A DNA stretch of 64,000 bases from Bacteroidia bacterium. GTDB lineage: Bacteria; Bacteroidota; Bacteroidia; Chitinophagales; JAUHXS01. The stretch covers positions 62,001 through 126,000 of the forward strand of contig JAUHXS010000007.1 of the NCBI GenBank assembly GCA_030426955.1. Reading direction: 5' to 3'. The notes below the pieces were generated by a model that saw only the letters and a list, made by a program, of their open reading frames with translations, was not told the origin of the DNA and did no database searches. Both the position numbers and the translations under genes were made by a program. Positions 13,012 through 47,462 of the stretch are shown here, piece after piece; position 1 is the stretch's first letter; every line of letters begins with the position of its first letter.

Positions 13012-14553
13012 CTAGTTATCAACTTTGAAGTTAACATTGTCCCTAATTACCTCTGCAAATGATCTATTGTCAGCCTTGCTTTGTATCCAAGATAGTGAGT
13101 CAAAAAAATCTAAAGTCAGTCGTTCGCTGGAATCTTTTAAAGTTTGTTGCAGCCTTTGATATGTATCTTGAATTATCTTTTTTCTATTCTCGCTTTTAGG
13201 AGGGGCATTGGTTATCTTCTTACAAAATTCAATTAAAATATGTTCTACTTCACCAAATTCAGCATTCTTTTTTAAGTAGCCTTTAGTAGAAACAGTTAGG
13301 CTTGAGATGAGTAAGTCGTTTGTAAGTTCATAATGCGTAATTACATTGAGCACCTTTGCAAAGGTTATTAGCCTTTTATTGATAGGGAAAAGCTTATGTT
13401 CAAATAATCTGTTCAAGTAAGAGATGGTTTCAGTATATTTTCTAGCTCCAAAGTTGGCATAAGCAAACATATAGTTAAACATGATAAAATCTGGAGTGGT
13501 TAGTTTTGAGTAAAAGGGTTTATGCCCCTCTATTTTTTCAGACAGTTCTAATGCTAAATCAAAATTTCCAATTTTTAAAAAGAAAAACAATTCATTTTGG
13601 TAAGTTAGAAGGTTTTGGGAGAATTGCTCTTTTACGTTATCCGCTTCAATGCTCTTGAATAGCTTTAAAGTGTCTTGGAATGATTGAAATCGATTATGCT
13701 TGACACAGCTTACTAAGTAATTAGAAATGGTAGCAATATAAACTCCTCTTAACCCTAGTTTGCTCGCAATTTCAAGATTACAATGTTCTGCTAACGCTTT
13801 ATTACATTGAAATAATTTCTTAGAATCATTATTGGCATAGTAATAACTAAAAAGTGTTTGCAGATAGAGTGTTTTTATTCTGAAAGAGCTCAAGACATCC
13901 TTATCTTTTTCTGGTATGTCAATTTGATCAAAAATATCCTTAATGTTTTTGACCTGATGATGGCCTCTAGCCTGTTCCATCTTTACAATTTGTTGAGACA
14001 GCTTCCTGTAAGCCTTTTCAAGCATGATTTTGTATCGAATTTTCTTTGCCAGAAGCTCTGACTCATTGAACAACTCATCCAAATCACTTTTGCTTATTTG
14101 ATGGTAATTGCTATTGAAATAGAATTTTATTTTCCATTCCGTCAAGATTTCGTATTCTGCTTCAAATCGCTCAGCATCTTTTGCTAGGTTATAAGCTCTA
14201 TCTATCCATTTTTCTGATTGTTTTAAGAGATTTCTATTATAAAGTATTGTAGCCTTCTGTACCATGCTTTTGATTTGATAGCTCGGAGATGCAGAAGACT
14301 CTTGGTACTGGAGATGGTTGAGAATAGTTCTGTACAGGTACTTTTTTAAGCTAGCATAGTGTTTCCCATAGCCCTCTCCTGAGGCTATCTTTTTTATTGC
14401 CTCTTCATCGTAGGTCTTTTGTTTATCTAGTAATTCAAACAGTTTAAGGTATGTTTTGTCTTTATCATATATGCCTGAAAGTAGTTTTATGCTCCTTTTT
14501 TCGGATTTGCTTAAAGATTTAATCAATTCAAATAAATCAGAAGTAGGCTTCAA
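13012..14553 (-). CDS. Helical-repeat protein A of a three-member family; function unknown
   Basis: 513 residues, no signal peptide, no transmembrane segment, so cytosolic. The N-terminus has the motif LFELIKSLSKSEKR (7-20). Most of the rest is a string of amphipathic helices in TPR-like pairs (e.g. ILYNRNLLKQSEKWIDRAYNL). The C-terminus has LDFFDSLSWIQSK and FAEVI. The same N- and C-terminal motifs occur in the protein at 44711-46261, and a more distant relative is at 60553-62013. Lies upstream of dnaN. No catalytic motif was recognised. The layout resembles regulatory TPR scaffolds, but that is only analogy. Confidence 0.8.
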   Translation of the reverse strand: MKPTSDLFELIKSLSKSEKRSIKLLSGIYDKDKTYLKLFELLDKQKTYDEEAIKKIASGEGYGKHYASLKKYLYRTILNHLQYQESSASPSYQIKSMVQKATILYNRNLLKQSEKWIDRAYNLAKDAERFEAEYEILTEWKIKFYFNSNYHQISKSDLDELFNESELLAKKIRYKIMLEKAYRKLSQQIVKMEQARGHHQVKNIKDIFDQIDIPEKDKDVLSSFRIKTLYLQTLFSYYYANNDSKKLFQCNKALAEHCNLEIASKLGLRGVYIATISNYLVSCVKHNRFQSFQDTLKLFKSIEADNVKEQFSQNLLTYQNELFFFLKIGNFDLALELSEKIEGHKPFYSKLTTPDFIMFNYMFAYANFGARKYTETISYLNRLFEHKLFPINKRLITFAKVLNVITHYELTNDLLISSLTVSTKGYLKKNAEFGEVEHILIEFCKKITNAPPKSENRKKIIQDTYQRLQQTLKDSSERLTLDFFDSLSWIQSKADNRSFAEVIRDNVNFKVDN

Positions 14554-14696
14554 TAGATCTCTATTTGTGTTTTTATATTATTGATAGTAAGAATATTATA
14601 AATATATAATAAGTTTTGGAAAGATCATAGTGTCGTTGATTTATTGTTGAGTAAAGAAGAATATCTACTTATCATTAAATATCAAATTAAAGGTCT

Positions 14697-16343
14697 ATGA
14701 AAACCAGCAACATTTTATTCCTGAGTTTGTCTTTTCTACTGAGTGTGTCAATAAGTGCACAAAAGTTTAAGAACAACTGGTATTTTGGCAATAAAGGAGG
14801 GCTTAATTTTGACGGCGATTCAGCTAATTTGTTAACCAATAGCGCTATGGTAACTAGTGAGGGCTGTGCGAGTATTTCTGATCAAGAAGGCAATTTGCTT
14901 TTCTATTCTAATGGAGAGCAACTTTGGGATAAAAGCCATCAAGTGATGCCCAATGGTGATGGTTTATTGGGGAGTACTAGTTCTGTTCAGTCTTGCTTGG
15001 CTGCTCCAGTTATTGGGTCTCAAAAATTGTATTATCTGTTTACAGTGGATGGAAGAACTTCTTCTACAAATGGAGGGTATCAATGGGATGGGCTAACCTA
15101 TTCTATCATTGATATGACTTTACCCGGAAATGGAAGTATATCTGACCCTTATGGAGATATTGTATCTGCTGAAAAGAACAAAATCATCTTAGACGATAGT
15201 TTGACGGAGGGAATTACAGCTATTCTTCATGAAAACGAAGATTTAGGATATTGGATTGTAGTGAGGAAGCACAATGCAAATAAGTATTATTCTTACCTGA
15301 TAACCCAGGATGGGGTTTGTTCAAAGCCTATTATATCAGATTTCCCGAACGAATTTATTACTGATGATCCAAGCGCACTAAAAGCGTCTTTTGATGGTAG
15401 AACATTAGTTGATGGAACCTGGAAAGATTTAAGAAAATTTGATTTTGATAGATCGACAGGAAAGCTGAACAATTATATTCAGCTAGCAAGTGTTGCTCAT
15501 CGAACAATTGCTTTTTCCCCTAACGATTCCTTGATTTACGCAAAAAATGGAACAGGTGATTTGAAAATTTTTAAAAGATTTTCACCTGACATCATTGCTA
15601 GTGAGAAAGTTATTCACGTGACAGGTTTTTATAGTTTACTGCTTGGTCCTAATGGTAAGATTTATGGAACTGGGTGGAATAAAATTGATGTTATTCATGA
15701 TCCTAATAATTATGATAATCCCAATATCGAAAATAGTATTATTGATATGGGCAGTGCAAATGCGGCAGTTTCTTTCCCTAATTTTTTTGATCACTTTGAT
15801 AAAGTTTTTTCATATTCGAGCAATTGGGATACAAGTTTGTGTCATGGTGATACAATCAATATTCCAGCTGTTTTAGATACCAACTCTTTTTGGGCATCAA
15901 TGGAAAAACCACTAAATGAAAACATATCCAATCCTCCGATAGCAATTGATTCTGGGACTGTTATGTTGGTGTTGACGCATGAATATGCAGACTGCTTTTG
16001 GAACGATACTTTTAACATAGTGGGCATGATATGCGATACTATAGTTGATACTATTATGGATTCGACCTTGCTAGGACAGGATTCTGTGATTAATGAAATA
16101 TTATTTGTACCCAATGCTTTTTCTCCAGATGGAGATGGAGAGAATGATTATTTTGAGATTAAGTCAAATCAACTGACAGATTTCTATATTAAATTTTATG
16201 ATAAGCTTGGTAAGCTAGTTTATGAAACAAACGATCATGCTTTTAGATGGGATGGTCAAGGATTAAGGAATAATACCAACCTTACGTATGTATTATCTAC
16301 AGATGGTAAATTGAAGATTGGAAATGTGACGGTAGTCTTGTAA
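14697..16343 (+). CDS. T9SS type B sorting-domain protein with N-terminal propeller-like domain
   Basis: 548 residues. Signal peptide MKTSNILFLSLSFLLSVSIS, cleaved near SAQ. The N-terminal ~370 residues begin NNWYFGNKGGLNFDGD, followed by EGCASISDQEGNLLFYSNG; this module is widespread in secreted Bacteroidota proteins and probably folds as a beta-propeller. The C-terminal ~85 residues start VPNAFSPDGDGENDYFEI, then KFYDKLGKLVYET and FRWDG, the type B (gliding-motility C-terminal) sorting domain. Secreted by T9SS to the surface. The stop is 3 bp from the stop of the convergent gene, leaving no room for a separate terminator. Confidence 0.9.
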   Translation: MKTSNILFLSLSFLLSVSISAQKFKNNWYFGNKGGLNFDGDSANLLTNSAMVTSEGCASISDQEGNLLFYSNGEQLWDKSHQVMPNGDGLLGSTSSVQSCLAAPVIGSQKLYYLFTVDGRTSSTNGGYQWDGLTYSIIDMTLPGNGSISDPYGDIVSAEKNKIILDDSLTEGITAILHENEDLGYWIVVRKHNANKYYSYLITQDGVCSKPIISDFPNEFITDDPSALKASFDGRTLVDGTWKDLRKFDFDRSTGKLNNYIQLASVAHRTIAFSPNDSLIYAKNGTGDLKIFKRFSPDIIASEKVIHVTGFYSLLLGPNGKIYGTGWNKIDVIHDPNNYDNPNIENSIIDMGSANAAVSFPNFFDHFDKVFSYSSNWDTSLCHGDTINIPAVLDTNSFWASMEKPLNENISNPPIAIDSGTVMLVLTHEYADCFWNDTFNIVGMICDTIVDTIMDSTLLGQDSVINEILFVPNAFSPDGDGENDYFEIKSNQLTDFYIKFYDKLGKLVYETNDHAFRWDGQGLRNNTNLTYVLSTDGKLKIGNVTVVL

Positions 16344-42356: not shown

Positions 42357-44621
42357 TTACTTTAAAAGGCTTATTGCTCTAGTTAAAGGTATTCGTTCCC
42401 CATCCTGATATGCTGTTATAAAAGCTTCTGGAACAATAGTTGCAACCTGATTTTTTCTCGCTTTCGCTTCATTGATGGTTGAAAATTCACCTGATGTGTA
42501 CCTTGTGATTCCATCATCAGATTTATTGGTTTGCAATTCTGATATATTAGAAAAATAATTTTGATTAACTGGGTTTCTAAATGCACCTACTTGTATTTTG
42601 AAAACTAAGCCAGGGACCGATTTTTCGCCATACTTTAAAAATGCCGAATTACTAGAGGTACCATTAGAGGATGAATTGACAATGCTTAATAAATCTTGAC
42701 TGATAAATACATCTTTATATTTAGGCTGCTTTTCATAAACATACACATCAGCATCACCTAAAATTTTAAATGATACTCTTCTATTCTTTTGTCGTCCTAC
42801 ATCACTATCGTTTGAATGTATTGGTTGACTTTCTCCTTGGCATTTTGCATAAAATTGGTTTGCATTTATTCCTCCCTTAATAAGGTAGTCTATAGTTTGC
42901 TTAACCCTTGATACGGATAGGTCTACATTGTATAAATCAGAGCCTACTCCATCTGTATGCCCTGAAACTTCAACGACTGCTGTTGGGTGTTCTAATAAAA
43001 AAGCTACTATTTGGTCTAGTTTATCAAATTCTGAATCTCTGATATTTGCATCATTAAAATCAAATAATATAGAGATATCTTTTACCTCTTCCCATGAAGA
43101 AGATGGCGCTAAAGCATTGTCTCCATCGCTTTCTTTATTAGGTTCAATGTCTTGTGGAGTATTGTCTGATGACGCTATGGTACTATCTTGCTTATTTTCT
43201 TGACTAGCAGACACGGACGGCGTACTTGTTAAAGAGCTATCAATAGATTTTGAAGCACTTAAGCTATCTAAATCACCATTAAGAGTATTATCATTGTATA
43301 CATTACTATTAGAGTCAATTTTAGATGAGTCGGTATAACTTTTTCCACTTCCTGAGCTAGTACCTAAGGCTAGCATACTTGCACTTCCTCCATCGGAATA
43401 AAGGTCTAACTCTCCATTGCCTCCTTTTCTATTGGATGCTATATAAATTTTTTCATTTTCTCCTTGTAGCCTGAAAAATACATCTCTAGCATCAGTATTG
43501 ATAGGGTATCCCATATTAATGGGCTTTGACCATTTGCCATTTGGCAATTTTAATGATCTAAATACGTCAAATCCACCAATTCCAGGCAGTCCATTAGAGC
43601 TAAAAAACAAAGTGTTCCCATCAGCGCTTACAAAAGGACTTACCTCATCAAACTCTGTATTGATGGAGTCACCCAAATTTACAGCTTCTGACCATTTCCC
43701 AGATTCATCCTTCGTGCAATAATATAAGTCTCTCCCTTTATTTCCACCAGGTCTATCTGAAGCAAAAAATAAAGTGTTCCCATCTTCTGTTACAAATGGG
43801 TGTGCGTCCCAATAAGGCGTGTTTATCTCTTTAGAAAGTTTAGTTGAGTCAACCCATTCTGTATTGCTTACAATTTTTGCTAGAAAAATATCTACATTGC
43901 CACCGTAGCCATCTTTTTTTGCCTCCTTTTCATTAATAAATCGATCAAAATAAGCCAACTTGCTGTTTTGTAAGATAAAGGAAGTGTGCTCTGCAGACTT
44001 TGTATTAATACCATTACCAAGGTTTTTTATCTCGCTCCAAGGAGATTCCTTTCCCGTTCTCGTTGCATAAAATAGATCTTCACTATATTGTCCATCATTG
44101 GCTTTGCCTCCTTTTAATGATTTCCTTCTTGAGGTAAAAACAAAAGATAGTTCATCTGTGCTATATGATATGCAGCAGTCGTCATACTCTGAGTTGATTT
44201 CCTTGCCAACATTAGTTATCTCGATATCTACCGGATTTGCCATTAGGTAAGTTTGCTTTGACGTATTTATTAATGTGCTCATGGCAATACGCTTATATCC
44301 TTTTATATCTTCAACTTCATCATCTTTAAAGGTTGCTTTTCCAACATTTAGTGCTTGATCAAATTGATCAATTGCCTTTACCAACTGTTGTGTGTATAGT
44401 AATGCTATTCCATAGTCTCTATGATAAATGGCTTTTTTAGAGTTATCATCGTCTATCATTTCCATTACAATCGCATAGTGTTCTGTAGCAGTAGTATAGT
44501 TGCCATTTTTTTGAGCCTTTAAGGCTATTTTGAGAGGCTCTTTGTAGTTTTCAAACTGTTGTTGAGCCATTGTACAGAGAGAAAATGCAAGTGATACTAA
44601 TATTGTGATCTTAGTTTTCAT
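42357..44621 (-). CDS. OmpA-family protein with PD40 propeller and C-terminal SPOR-like domain
   Basis: 754 residues from ATG 44621, where the signal peptide (MKTKITILVSLAFSLCTMAQ) starts; an earlier Met at 44687 is poor. Order: TPR-like helices (25-140), PD40/WD40-like beta-propeller (about 150-425, e.g. HPFVTEDGNTLFFASDRPGG), Ser/Asp-rich linker (430-530), OmpA domain (ISILFDFNDANIRDSEFDKL, VEVSGHTDGVGSDLYN, NRRVSFKIL), and a tail with VFKIQVGAFRNP that looks like SPOR. PorE in the T9SS shares TPR-propeller-OmpA layout. Binding peptidoglycan at the periplasmic side is expected; the SPOR end could mark division or wall-denuded sites. Confidence 0.85.
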   Translation of the reverse strand: MKTKITILVSLAFSLCTMAQQQFENYKEPLKIALKAQKNGNYTTATEHYAIVMEMIDDDNSKKAIYHRDYGIALLYTQQLVKAIDQFDQALNVGKATFKDDEVEDIKGYKRIAMSTLINTSKQTYLMANPVDIEITNVGKEINSEYDDCCISYSTDELSFVFTSRRKSLKGGKANDGQYSEDLFYATRTGKESPWSEIKNLGNGINTKSAEHTSFILQNSKLAYFDRFINEKEAKKDGYGGNVDIFLAKIVSNTEWVDSTKLSKEINTPYWDAHPFVTEDGNTLFFASDRPGGNKGRDLYYCTKDESGKWSEAVNLGDSINTEFDEVSPFVSADGNTLFFSSNGLPGIGGFDVFRSLKLPNGKWSKPINMGYPINTDARDVFFRLQGENEKIYIASNRKGGNGELDLYSDGGSASMLALGTSSGSGKSYTDSSKIDSNSNVYNDNTLNGDLDSLSASKSIDSSLTSTPSVSASQENKQDSTIASSDNTPQDIEPNKESDGDNALAPSSSWEEVKDISILFDFNDANIRDSEFDKLDQIVAFLLEHPTAVVEVSGHTDGVGSDLYNVDLSVSRVKQTIDYLIKGGINANQFYAKCQGESQPIHSNDSDVGRQKNRRVSFKILGDADVYVYEKQPKYKDVFISQDLLSIVNSSSNGTSSNSAFLKYGEKSVPGLVFKIQVGAFRNPVNQNYFSNISELQTNKSDDGITRYTSGEFSTINEAKARKNQVATIVPEAFITAYQDGERIPLTRAISLLK

Positions 44622-44710
44622 ATATTGACCATTATACTTTATGAGTAAATATATAAAATAGTAAATCAGAAAGTTATGTATTGACAATATCTTGAATCAC
44701 AACGCTGTTG

Positions 44711-46261
44711 TTAAGTGTATAGATTTTTAAACACTTCTTGTTTTACGGTAGCAAAATCTTTTCCTTGAATTTTGCTGTCTATCCATGAAAGCATATCAAA
44801 ATAAATGATTCGATTATCTGCTTCAAGAATTTTAATGGTTTCTGCTTTTATTCTTTTTAGGTTTTGAATCATTTTGAGCTCATCTGTATCGGCCAAAGCA
44901 ATATATGTTTTGAATGCTTCAAAGTATATATGAAGTGTTTTTTGCGTTTTAGGGATTAGCTTTTTAATTGCCCTATGGGTATTTGAAACCAGACTGTGAA
45001 GAAGAAGGTGATTTTTTAATTCAATGTGGTTTTGGATTTCTCGCAACATAGCATAAATATAGATGTGAGGGAAGGTGCCGCGTTCAATATCTTCTAAATT
45101 TAGAATCTGTGAGTTATAGTATAAGCTTTTATCGTAATTGCCTAAAAAATAATACGCATCGGCAAGTCCGCTCATAATATCAATTTTGTTTACATTTCTC
45201 ATATGAAAAGAATAGTCCGCATATAATTTTTCTACTTTTTCACAGCCTTTTAGGGTTTCATTGATATTCCCTTTACTAAGATCATAATAAACTCTGTGAA
45301 TATGGTATCTTGCTACTAAGTGTGACTTTTCTTTTATTGATAAAGACGATGAAAATTTACTTTCTAACTGACTTCCAAAGTCTAAGCTATTTATAAGCTC
45401 ATCTCTTTTATTTAGCATAACAGCGCCAAGGATGGTATTGTGCATAAAGCTGATACAATCGCTAAAATGACTTTTGACGAGTTCATCACTTTTTTTGAAA
45501 ACATTAAGTCCACCTTGTAGAACCTTTAGCATATTTTTATTATCAGGTAGGCTATAGTAGTATGCTGATAGTGCCAATGAATATGAAATGCGCTCTATTT
45601 TTGTTATATCCTTACTTTTTAAAAATTGTGTGATTCGTTTAACTTCTTTGCTGTAAGCCTTCTGTCCATTAACATTTGCTCCACTACGATAGAGTTGACT
45701 AATAACTTTAGATGCAAAATATTGTGCCTGAGATATGCTTTCGAGTTTTTTCAAAGCATAATTTTCAGTTTTTCTATTTTGCTCAATAGTACTTAGAGCA
45801 TTTTTTAAGAAATTTCCTTTTCTGACAATTTTCTGTTCTAGCCTTTTGACCTCAAGTAGCTTGAGAAAAAGTTCGTGCTTGATGCATAGCTTCTCTGATT
45901 TGTGAAGAATCTTTAGTGCGCTTTTGTATAGCTCTTTTTGAAAAAGAATTTGAGCACTTCTCAGATCTTCTTCAACTGTAAATGAAACTCTTGATTTAGA
46001 ATGGAATGAATTTAGGCTTTTTAAAATGAGCTTATATAAATAGTGCTTGTTAAACGTAAATGTTTTTAGAATTTGTTTGTCGTTTTTAAAATATAGCTTG
46101 ATCTTTTCCTCATCATAGTGTTCTTGTTTTTCAATTACATCAAAAATTTTGATGTAATTGTTTTGATCACCTTTGACGTGGAGTTTAGAGAAAATTTTAA
46201 AATACCTTTTCTCTGATTTTGACAAAGATTTTACAAGCTCGAATAATTGATCTTGAGTCAT
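44711..46261 (-). CDS. Helical-repeat protein B of the three-member family; function unknown
   Basis: 516 residues, no signal or membrane segment. N-terminus LFELVKSLSKSEKRYFKIF is nearly the same as in protein A (13012-14553: LFELIKSLSKSEKRSIKLL), and ILFQKELYKSALKILHKSEK matches ILYNRNLLKQSEKWIDRAYN there. C-terminus IIYFDMLSWIDSKIQGKDFA corresponds to LDFFDSLSWIQSK...FA. Between are TPR-like helical pairs. It sits just upstream of the OmpA-SPOR gene (89 bp) and downstream of bshA, behind a terminator-like repeat whose T-run almost reaches its ATG. No catalytic motif; a scaffold or regulator is guessed. Confidence 0.8.
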   Translation of the reverse strand: MTQDQLFELVKSLSKSEKRYFKIFSKLHVKGDQNNYIKIFDVIEKQEHYDEEKIKLYFKNDKQILKTFTFNKHYLYKLILKSLNSFHSKSRVSFTVEEDLRSAQILFQKELYKSALKILHKSEKLCIKHELFLKLLEVKRLEQKIVRKGNFLKNALSTIEQNRKTENYALKKLESISQAQYFASKVISQLYRSGANVNGQKAYSKEVKRITQFLKSKDITKIERISYSLALSAYYYSLPDNKNMLKVLQGGLNVFKKSDELVKSHFSDCISFMHNTILGAVMLNKRDELINSLDFGSQLESKFSSSLSIKEKSHLVARYHIHRVYYDLSKGNINETLKGCEKVEKLYADYSFHMRNVNKIDIMSGLADAYYFLGNYDKSLYYNSQILNLEDIERGTFPHIYIYAMLREIQNHIELKNHLLLHSLVSNTHRAIKKLIPKTQKTLHIYFEAFKTYIALADTDELKMIQNLKRIKAETIKILEADNRIIYFDMLSWIDSKIQGKDFATVKQEVFKNLYT

Positions 46262-46343: not shown

Positions 46344-47462
46344 TTATATGAAAGTATTATAATAATCTTCGTACTTAGGAAGAATACTGCTAATATCAAA
46401 TTGCTTAGCTTGCGTATAAGCAGCAGATTTAAATGCAGATAATTTGCCTTCATCTTCTAAAAGACTAATAGCGTTAGCGGCCATTTCTGTAATATTTCCA
46501 ACATCAGACAAATAACCAGTTTTGCCTTGTATGTTTATTTCAGGTATGCCACCGACATTGCTTGATATGACAGGGACACCGCATGCCATTGCTTCTAGAG
46601 CTGCCAACCCAAAACTTTCTGACTCTGACGGCATGATGAAAATATCGGCAATAGCAAGCAGTTCTTCAACTGCCTCTTGCTTTCCTAGAAAGCGAATGTC
46701 TTTGCAGGTATTTAGTGATCTGCAAAGCTCTTCAACATTTCCTCTTTCAGGACCATCACCAACTAATAATAGCTTAGCGGGAATCTTTTTGGCAACTTCT
46801 GAAAAGATTTTAACAACATCCTTTACACGCTTTACTTTTCTGAAGTTTGAAGTGTGTATCAAAATTTTTTCATCATTCGGAGCAATAGCCTTTTTAAAAT
46901 GTTCCTTATTAAGTTTATTGAATCTGTTGAAGTCAATAAAGTTAGGAATGACTTCTATATCTCTAGAAATATTAAAAAAATCAAGGGTATTGTTTTTTAA
47001 GCTTTCGGATACAGCTGTCACGCCATCAGACTGGTTGATAGAAAATTCAACCAATGAAGTGTAAGTTTTTTGTTTTCCAACAAGTGTAATGTCTGTACCG
47101 TGAAGAGTCGTAATTACTGGTAGGCTAATGCCTTGCCCTTTCAGAATTTGTTTGGCCATAAAAGCAGATGCTGCATGAGGAATGGCATAATGGACGTGAA
47201 GTAGATCAATCTTTTCAAACTTTACAATATCTACTAACGTGCCAGCTAATGCCGTTTCATAGGGAGGATATTCAAATAAAGGATATTGTGCAATACCAAC
47301 TTCATGAAAGTAAATATTCTCATTAAAAATATCAAGCCTAGCTGGTTGTCGATAGGCAATAAAGTGAACTTTATGACCTTTTCTAGCAAGTGCCTTTCCC
47401 AGTTCTGTGGCAACCACACCACTTCCTCCGTAGGTTGGATAGCAAACAATCCCAATATTCAT
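46344..47462 (-). CDS. bshA: N-acetyl-alpha-D-glucosaminyl L-malate synthase (bacillithiol synthesis)
   Basis: 372 residues. GT4 glycosyltransferase: MNIGIVCYPTYGGSGVVATE at the start, HVHYAIPHAASAF, TTLHGTDITLVG in the middle, and MPSESESFGLAALEAMACGV with the two catalytic Glu of GT4 enzymes. The Y-P-T-Y-G-G-S-G-V-V start is typical of BshA, which joins UDP-GlcNAc and L-malate in the first step of bacillithiol synthesis. No bshB or bshC in the window. bshA is bracketed by two perfect inverted repeats (46272-46324 and 47520-47553). Confidence 0.93.
   Translation of the reverse strand: MNIGIVCYPTYGGSGVVATELGKALARKGHKVHFIAYRQPARLDIFNENIYFHEVGIAQYPLFEYPPYETALAGTLVDIVKFEKIDLLHVHYAIPHAASAFMAKQILKGQGISLPVITTLHGTDITLVGKQKTYTSLVEFSINQSDGVTAVSESLKNNTLDFFNISRDIEVIPNFIDFNRFNKLNKEHFKKAIAPNDEKILIHTSNFRKVKRVKDVVKIFSEVAKKIPAKLLLVGDGPERGNVEELCRSLNTCKDIRFLGKQEAVEELLAIADIFIMPSESESFGLAALEAMACGVPVISSNVGGIPEINIQGKTGYLSDVGNITEMAANAISLLEDEGKLSAFKSAAYTQAKQFDISSILPKYEDYYNTFI

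Follow-up and report, generated by a model that had tools for sequence, protein, structure and literature searches.

The closest described system is that of BT2802 (RusR) of Bacteroides thetaiotaomicron, the only characterised homologue of the family considered here. In PMC12596196, which cites Glowacki et al. 2020 for it, RusR is treated as a transcriptional regulator of ribose utilisation, with a module that includes the ribose locus BT2803–2809. Our family shares with BT2802 a length of about 500 residues and, in 40 of the 42 copies scanned, a full-length match to the BT2802 profile; the position of BT2802 beside its target locus BT2803–2809, as given in PMC12596196, is counted as a further likeness. 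Two other kinds of regulator resemble the family in architecture. Rap and NprR, RRNPP proteins of Gram-positive bacteria and phages, have a TPR superhelix that is also found in our family, whereas the latter has neither a recognised helix-turn-helix (HTH) nor a consistent adjacent propeptide gene, at an identity of 9–13%. The MalT-type (STAND) regulators likewise have a TPR-like sensor region, but in our family Pfam finds neither an NTPase nor a LuxR-type HTH, and an N-terminal domain and the superhelix together take up all of its about 510 residues.

Two members of the family, A and B, are encoded in the window, the whole stretch of 64,000 nucleotides that was analysed, taken from a 3.4-Mb Bacteroidota genome (the source genome). 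Both open reading frames listed for them in the earlier note are present, on the minus strand, and the features needed below are as follows.

13012–14553, minus strand: A, family member of 513 residues, TTG start
14554–14696: divergent intergenic region of 143 bp between A and a T9SS cargo gene, presumed site of action of A
14697–16343, plus strand: exported protein of 548 residues with a C-terminal CHU_C signal (T9SS type B), transcribed divergently from A
42357–44687, minus strand: exported TPR/PD40/OmpA protein of 776 residues, 23 bp downstream of B, which may act on it
44711–46261, minus strand: B, family member of 516 residues, ATG start, cytoplasmic (no signal peptide seen)
44732–45892, minus strand: Rap/NprR-like TPR superhelix of B (residues 124–510), candidate sensor region
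45971–46261, minus strand: N-terminal domain of B (residues 1–97), conserved, basic, six helices, candidate DNA-binding domain
46344–47462, minus strand: glycosyltransferase group 1 (bshA-like), on the strand of B and 82 bp upstream of it

A and B are homologous end to end (26% identity, 44% positives, 81.6 bits, E = 9e-21 in BLASTP), a similarity that at this E-value is not due to chance. The TTG start of A agrees with the family consensus M-x-P-S-x-x-LF-x-LIKSL, and the N-terminal motif LFEL(I/V)KSLSKSEKR, previously read from these two proteins, is real and family-wide, with the Glu of EKR and one Leu invariant in 42 copies. The NCBIfam profile NF058569 (BT_2802_fam) matches A with 125.6 bits over residues 4–502 and B with 72.9 bits over residues 3–505, and 40 of the 42 copies scanned give a full-length match at E = 0.001 or better. 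These little-studied helical proteins, presumably sensors, are therefore not wholly undescribed, although the earlier note took them as the best candidate for an undescribed system in the window: the family and one characterised member, BT2802/RusR (treated as a ribose-utilisation regulator in PMC12596196), are already known. As the best scores, in the source genome as well as in 148 genomes searched across the phylum, lie far under the curated cut-off of 550 bits, A and B are distant homologues of the published regulator and stand outside the named family. They also differ from it in setting: their neighbours are dnaN, the CHU_C protein, the bshA-like gene and the OmpA/PD40 protein, no ribose-utilisation locus adjoins either of them, the family has about 48 copies, and linkage to T9SS cargo takes the place of the sugar-utilisation locus.

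The supposition of two unlinked copies proved to be a large undercount. The source genome contains 48 family matches, comprising about 46 full-length copies, one fragment of 196 residues and one weak match that was missed by our own family profile. The fragment (L056:9221–9811) has a secreted-protein-like start fused to the family C-terminus and is apparently a remnant or a fusion. With the NCBIfam profile, the family was found in 41 of the 148 genomes searched across the phylum, mostly as one copy each; within the order it is common, occurring in 64 of 80 genomes (19 candidates scored per genome); three other multi-copy genomes, in which far more candidates were scored, gave 15, 21 and 28 matches, fragments included. 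The named relatives were found through the subset carrying SLSKSEKR, so that the named set is biased to this motif. Divergence among the source-genome paralogues is large, with a median of 3.5 substitutions per site; for only half of them is the nearest neighbour in the family tree, whose deep branches are unresolved, another copy from the same genome.

Across the full-length source-genome copies, conservation is about 1.5–2.6 bits per column over residues 1 to 120–130 and about 1 bit in mid-protein, which bears out the earlier contrast between a conserved N-terminal part and a variable middle. A second conserved patch covers residues about 361–435 (YF..Y..AL; HYEL.N..LL..S..R.L.K). Of the two ends said to be conserved, the first is strongly so, whereas the C-terminal F....W..SK motif is conserved only modestly, leaving the ends unequal. 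The first 95 residues carry a mean net charge of +6.4, against +2.6 per 95 residues elsewhere. An AlphaFold2 model of B (42-row alignment; mean pLDDT, 90.4) is entirely helical, and Foldseek searches with it returned TPR proteins, among them NprR, RapI and domain III of MalT. In VIA-align, the top match was Rap (PDB ID: 4gyo; Z-score, 20.2; residues 124–510) and NprR (5dbk) scored 18.3, the Rap/NprR matches (Z-scores, 18–20) covering residues 121–510 of B; since the unrelated TPR protein LGN scored nearly as high (17.9), the TPR fold class is clear but a special kinship to Rap is not. The TPR-like helical repeats noted earlier are thus supported, by these nearest folds and by Pfam TPR matches in several copies.

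Sequence searches with A and B alone against Pfam and the PDB gave weak TPR and chance matches only, TPR_MalT was a weak Pfam match in two copies, and neither an NTPase domain nor a LuxR-type HTH was matched by Pfam in the 42 copies; the all-helical model likewise contains no NTPase domain. Modelled alone, the N-terminal domain folds into six helices (pLDDT, 88.7), for which the fold searches gave no confident match (best Foldseek E-value, 2.5; best VIA-align Z-score, 4.9) and the profile search against PDB sequences nothing convincing. No known HTH matched the domain, the best VIA-align match being the NLRP14 pyrin domain, judged to be a chance hit. An XRE-type HTH had no match in Pfam, in the PDB profile search or in the domain-alone fold search; a missing match leaves an HTH possible.

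The search for a conserved class of genomic neighbours, proposed in the earlier note as a check, was run and found such a class. TIGR04131 and TIGR04183 served to locate T9SS sorting domains across the whole genome, and neighbourhoods were read from genome stretches in which genes were called simply as the longest ORFs. The source genome, in which SprA was found, has about 285 genes for T9SS cargo, or approximately one every 12 kb, with 150 C-terminal sorting signals of type B and the rest of type A; one of its open frames spans 7930 residues (C5:328305). Of the 46 copies whose two neighbours are known (the fragment is among them), 29 have a T9SS cargo gene as divergent partner, as compared with 6 of 307 control genes from these loci (Fisher p = 8e-25); cargo lies on one flank or the other of 44 copies and of 60 of the 307 controls. 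The divergent gaps are 64–304 bp long (median, 129.5 bp), and 143 bp separate A from the gene of its CHU_C partner. In the cargo proteins, CHU_C or Por_Secre_tail is combined with PKD, Ig, FG-GAP, SBBP and DUF7948 domains, which gives them a structural or adhesive look. The only two copies lacking a cargo neighbour are C2:7563 and B, which has no divergent partner directly upstream because the bshA-like gene lies there on the same strand. The protein after B, with its TPR, PD40 beta-propeller and OmpA architecture, presumably resembles the T9SS component PorE; OmpA/PD40-like proteins also adjoin family members in some Flavobacteriales. In Mantel tests the similarity of regulators and that of their cargo were uncorrelated (r = 0.04–0.07, p = 0.2–0.3), and duplication of the cassettes as units was rejected on these values. 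Together with the divergence of the paralogues, this indicates that the pairings are old, or were separately made and remade, with no recent cassette duplication.

For peptide signalling of the RRNPP type, no consistent adjacent propeptide gene was found: a small signal-like ORF lies within 300 bp downstream of only 9 of 44 copies (median downstream gap, 13 bp), while such peptides may be encoded elsewhere. As a separate observation, TAnnTTTG, the –7 element usual in Bacteroidota, is rarer upstream of 30 family-linked cargo genes than upstream of other genes at the same loci (7% versus 31%), a scarcity that could reflect regulator-dependent promoters. A literature search found neither the extreme copy number nor the systematic divergent pairing with T9SS cargo; as most subscription papers were outside its reach, it is weak evidence of novelty.

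Of 158 members from other genomes, about 101 face a divergent gene upstream; among control genes the share is 33%. The divergent partners there include T9SS cargo (27), leuA/leuC (21), glutamate synthase (gltB; 1) and other signal-peptide-like proteins (28). One orthologous group (L144, L149, L155–L159, L162–L164, L177, L178, L181, L185, L187, L189, L191, L192, and L222) faces leuA divergently in much of the phylum and adjoins leuA-leuC-leuD, in some genomes also ilvD-ilvB; it is probably a regulator of leucine biosynthesis across the phylum. No published regulator for this pairing happened to come up in the literature consulted. A second group, in Flavobacteriales (L098, L107, L108, L110, L118, L161 and others), is divergent from a protein of 800 residues, which in the four cases checked is an M1 peptidase with a T9SS tail. 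In three further genomes with an expanded family, pairing with T9SS cargo falls short of significance (G201, 3/19; G169, 1/10; G181, 0/11), although the divergent partners in G169 are for the most part large proteins of the signal-peptide-like kind. Tight coupling to T9SS is accordingly strongest in the source lineage, and outside the source genome the pairing is real but partial.

The intergenic regions were examined by a simple motif search with dinucleotide shuffles, which ignore shared ancestry. In the leuA group TACGATGTYCAA is conserved, in most cases some 74 bp away from the start codon of the family member, at 12.2 bits versus 10.1 ± 0.2 (maximum, 10.5) in the shuffles, and in the M1-peptidase group ATTGTATTCCTA is conserved at 13.6 bits versus 10.1 ± 0.3, shared ancestry not being factored into either comparison; most of the sequence outside these motifs does not align. 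Among 30 divergent regions of the source genome, no shared operator was found beyond AT-rich words (9.08 bits versus 8.76 ± 0.12), and the 7-mers TGTTTTT and ATCAAAT are mildly enriched there, a signal on which we do not rely. Motifs that are specific to each group, with none common to the paralogues, form the pattern expected of site-specific regulators with different targets. In the earlier note a common partner and different ligands were conjectured; the group-specific motifs point to different DNA targets.

From these data, it is probable that the family consists of cytoplasmic proteins that regulate transcription of the gene divergent from each of them. A and B are paralogues in an expanded, RusR(BT2802)-like family of probable regulators, in which the conserved basic N-terminal helical domain may contact DNA and the Rap/NprR-like TPR superhelix may sense a signal or partner. 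A typical member lies divergent from its presumed target and would act on the 130–150 bp between them, at its own group-specific site; the direction of control and the ligand are equally conjectural parts of this scheme. In the source genome the family has expanded to about 48 copies, most of them paired with genes of large T9SS-exported surface proteins. The target of A is most likely the CHU_C protein at 14697–16343, whereas for B, an atypical copy, it may be the neighbouring OmpA/PD40 protein or bshA-like gene.

The regulator reading is favoured because of the excess of copies divergent from cargo over controls at gaps of 64–304 bp, because the divergent partners elsewhere are of unrelated target types, because the leuA and M1 groups keep separate motifs above shuffles, because conservation is highest in the basic N-terminal 95 residues, because the TPR superhelix is of the Rap/NprR and MalT regulator kind, and because the homologue RusR is treated as a transcriptional regulator in PMC12596196. 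Against it stand the N-terminal domain, which matched no known DNA-binding fold or HTH profile, the two copies (B and one other) lacking a cargo neighbour, the non-significant T9SS pairing in the three other expanded genomes, motif shuffles that ignore shared ancestry, and the uncorrelated similarities of regulators and cargo.

The absence of a recognised DNA-binding fold in that domain also favours an alternative, in our judgement unlikely, that the neighbour is regulated without DNA binding, through RNA (5' leader or antitermination) or through a protein–protein interaction whose partner is RNA polymerase, a sigma factor or some other regulator. Superhelices of the TPR type commonly serve as scaffolds for protein binding, and the conserved intergenic motifs, lying within a transcribed or promoter region, would then be leader or promoter elements; however, the arrangement is divergent and not operonic, the group-specific motifs fit sequence-specific DNA binding, and the N-terminal domain is both basic and conserved. 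It is decidedly improbable that the proteins are dedicated cytosolic TPR chaperones, each escorting the T9SS cargo product of its neighbour before Sec export: the fold and the 44 of 46 copies adjoining a cargo gene would suit such a role, but other members stand beside leuA, leuC and gltB, which encode cytosolic products, RusR has its role in the utilisation of ribose (PMC12596196), a chaperone and its client are not usually transcribed divergently, and the intergenic motifs would be left unexplained. Incidental adjacency, in which a genome with about 285 cargo genes in 3.4 Mb places any expanded family beside T9SS cargo, would agree with the weak pairing in the three other expanded genomes but is very improbable, being contradicted for the source genome by divergent cargo in 63% of the family versus 2% of same-locus controls and 3% of random positions.

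The T9SS exports hundreds of proteins in Bacteroidota, and to our knowledge its known controls are global ones (PorX/PorY/SigP). Returning to the regulator reading, the pairing suggests that many surface proteins are each under their own private switch. If about 30 cargo genes each had such a regulator next to them, the cell surface would be under gene-level control, and regulators could be matched to targets by a simple, testable rule. We put forward only tentatively, and as doubtful, the stronger proposal that these are one-component regulators of a new class, whose DNA-binding fold has yet to be described, with one regulator per T9SS surface protein and each responding to its own cue; if this is true, the cell picks which of dozens of T9SS-exported adhesin-like proteins to display. 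The same family, whose pairing with leuA is widely conserved, probably controls leucine biosynthesis as well.
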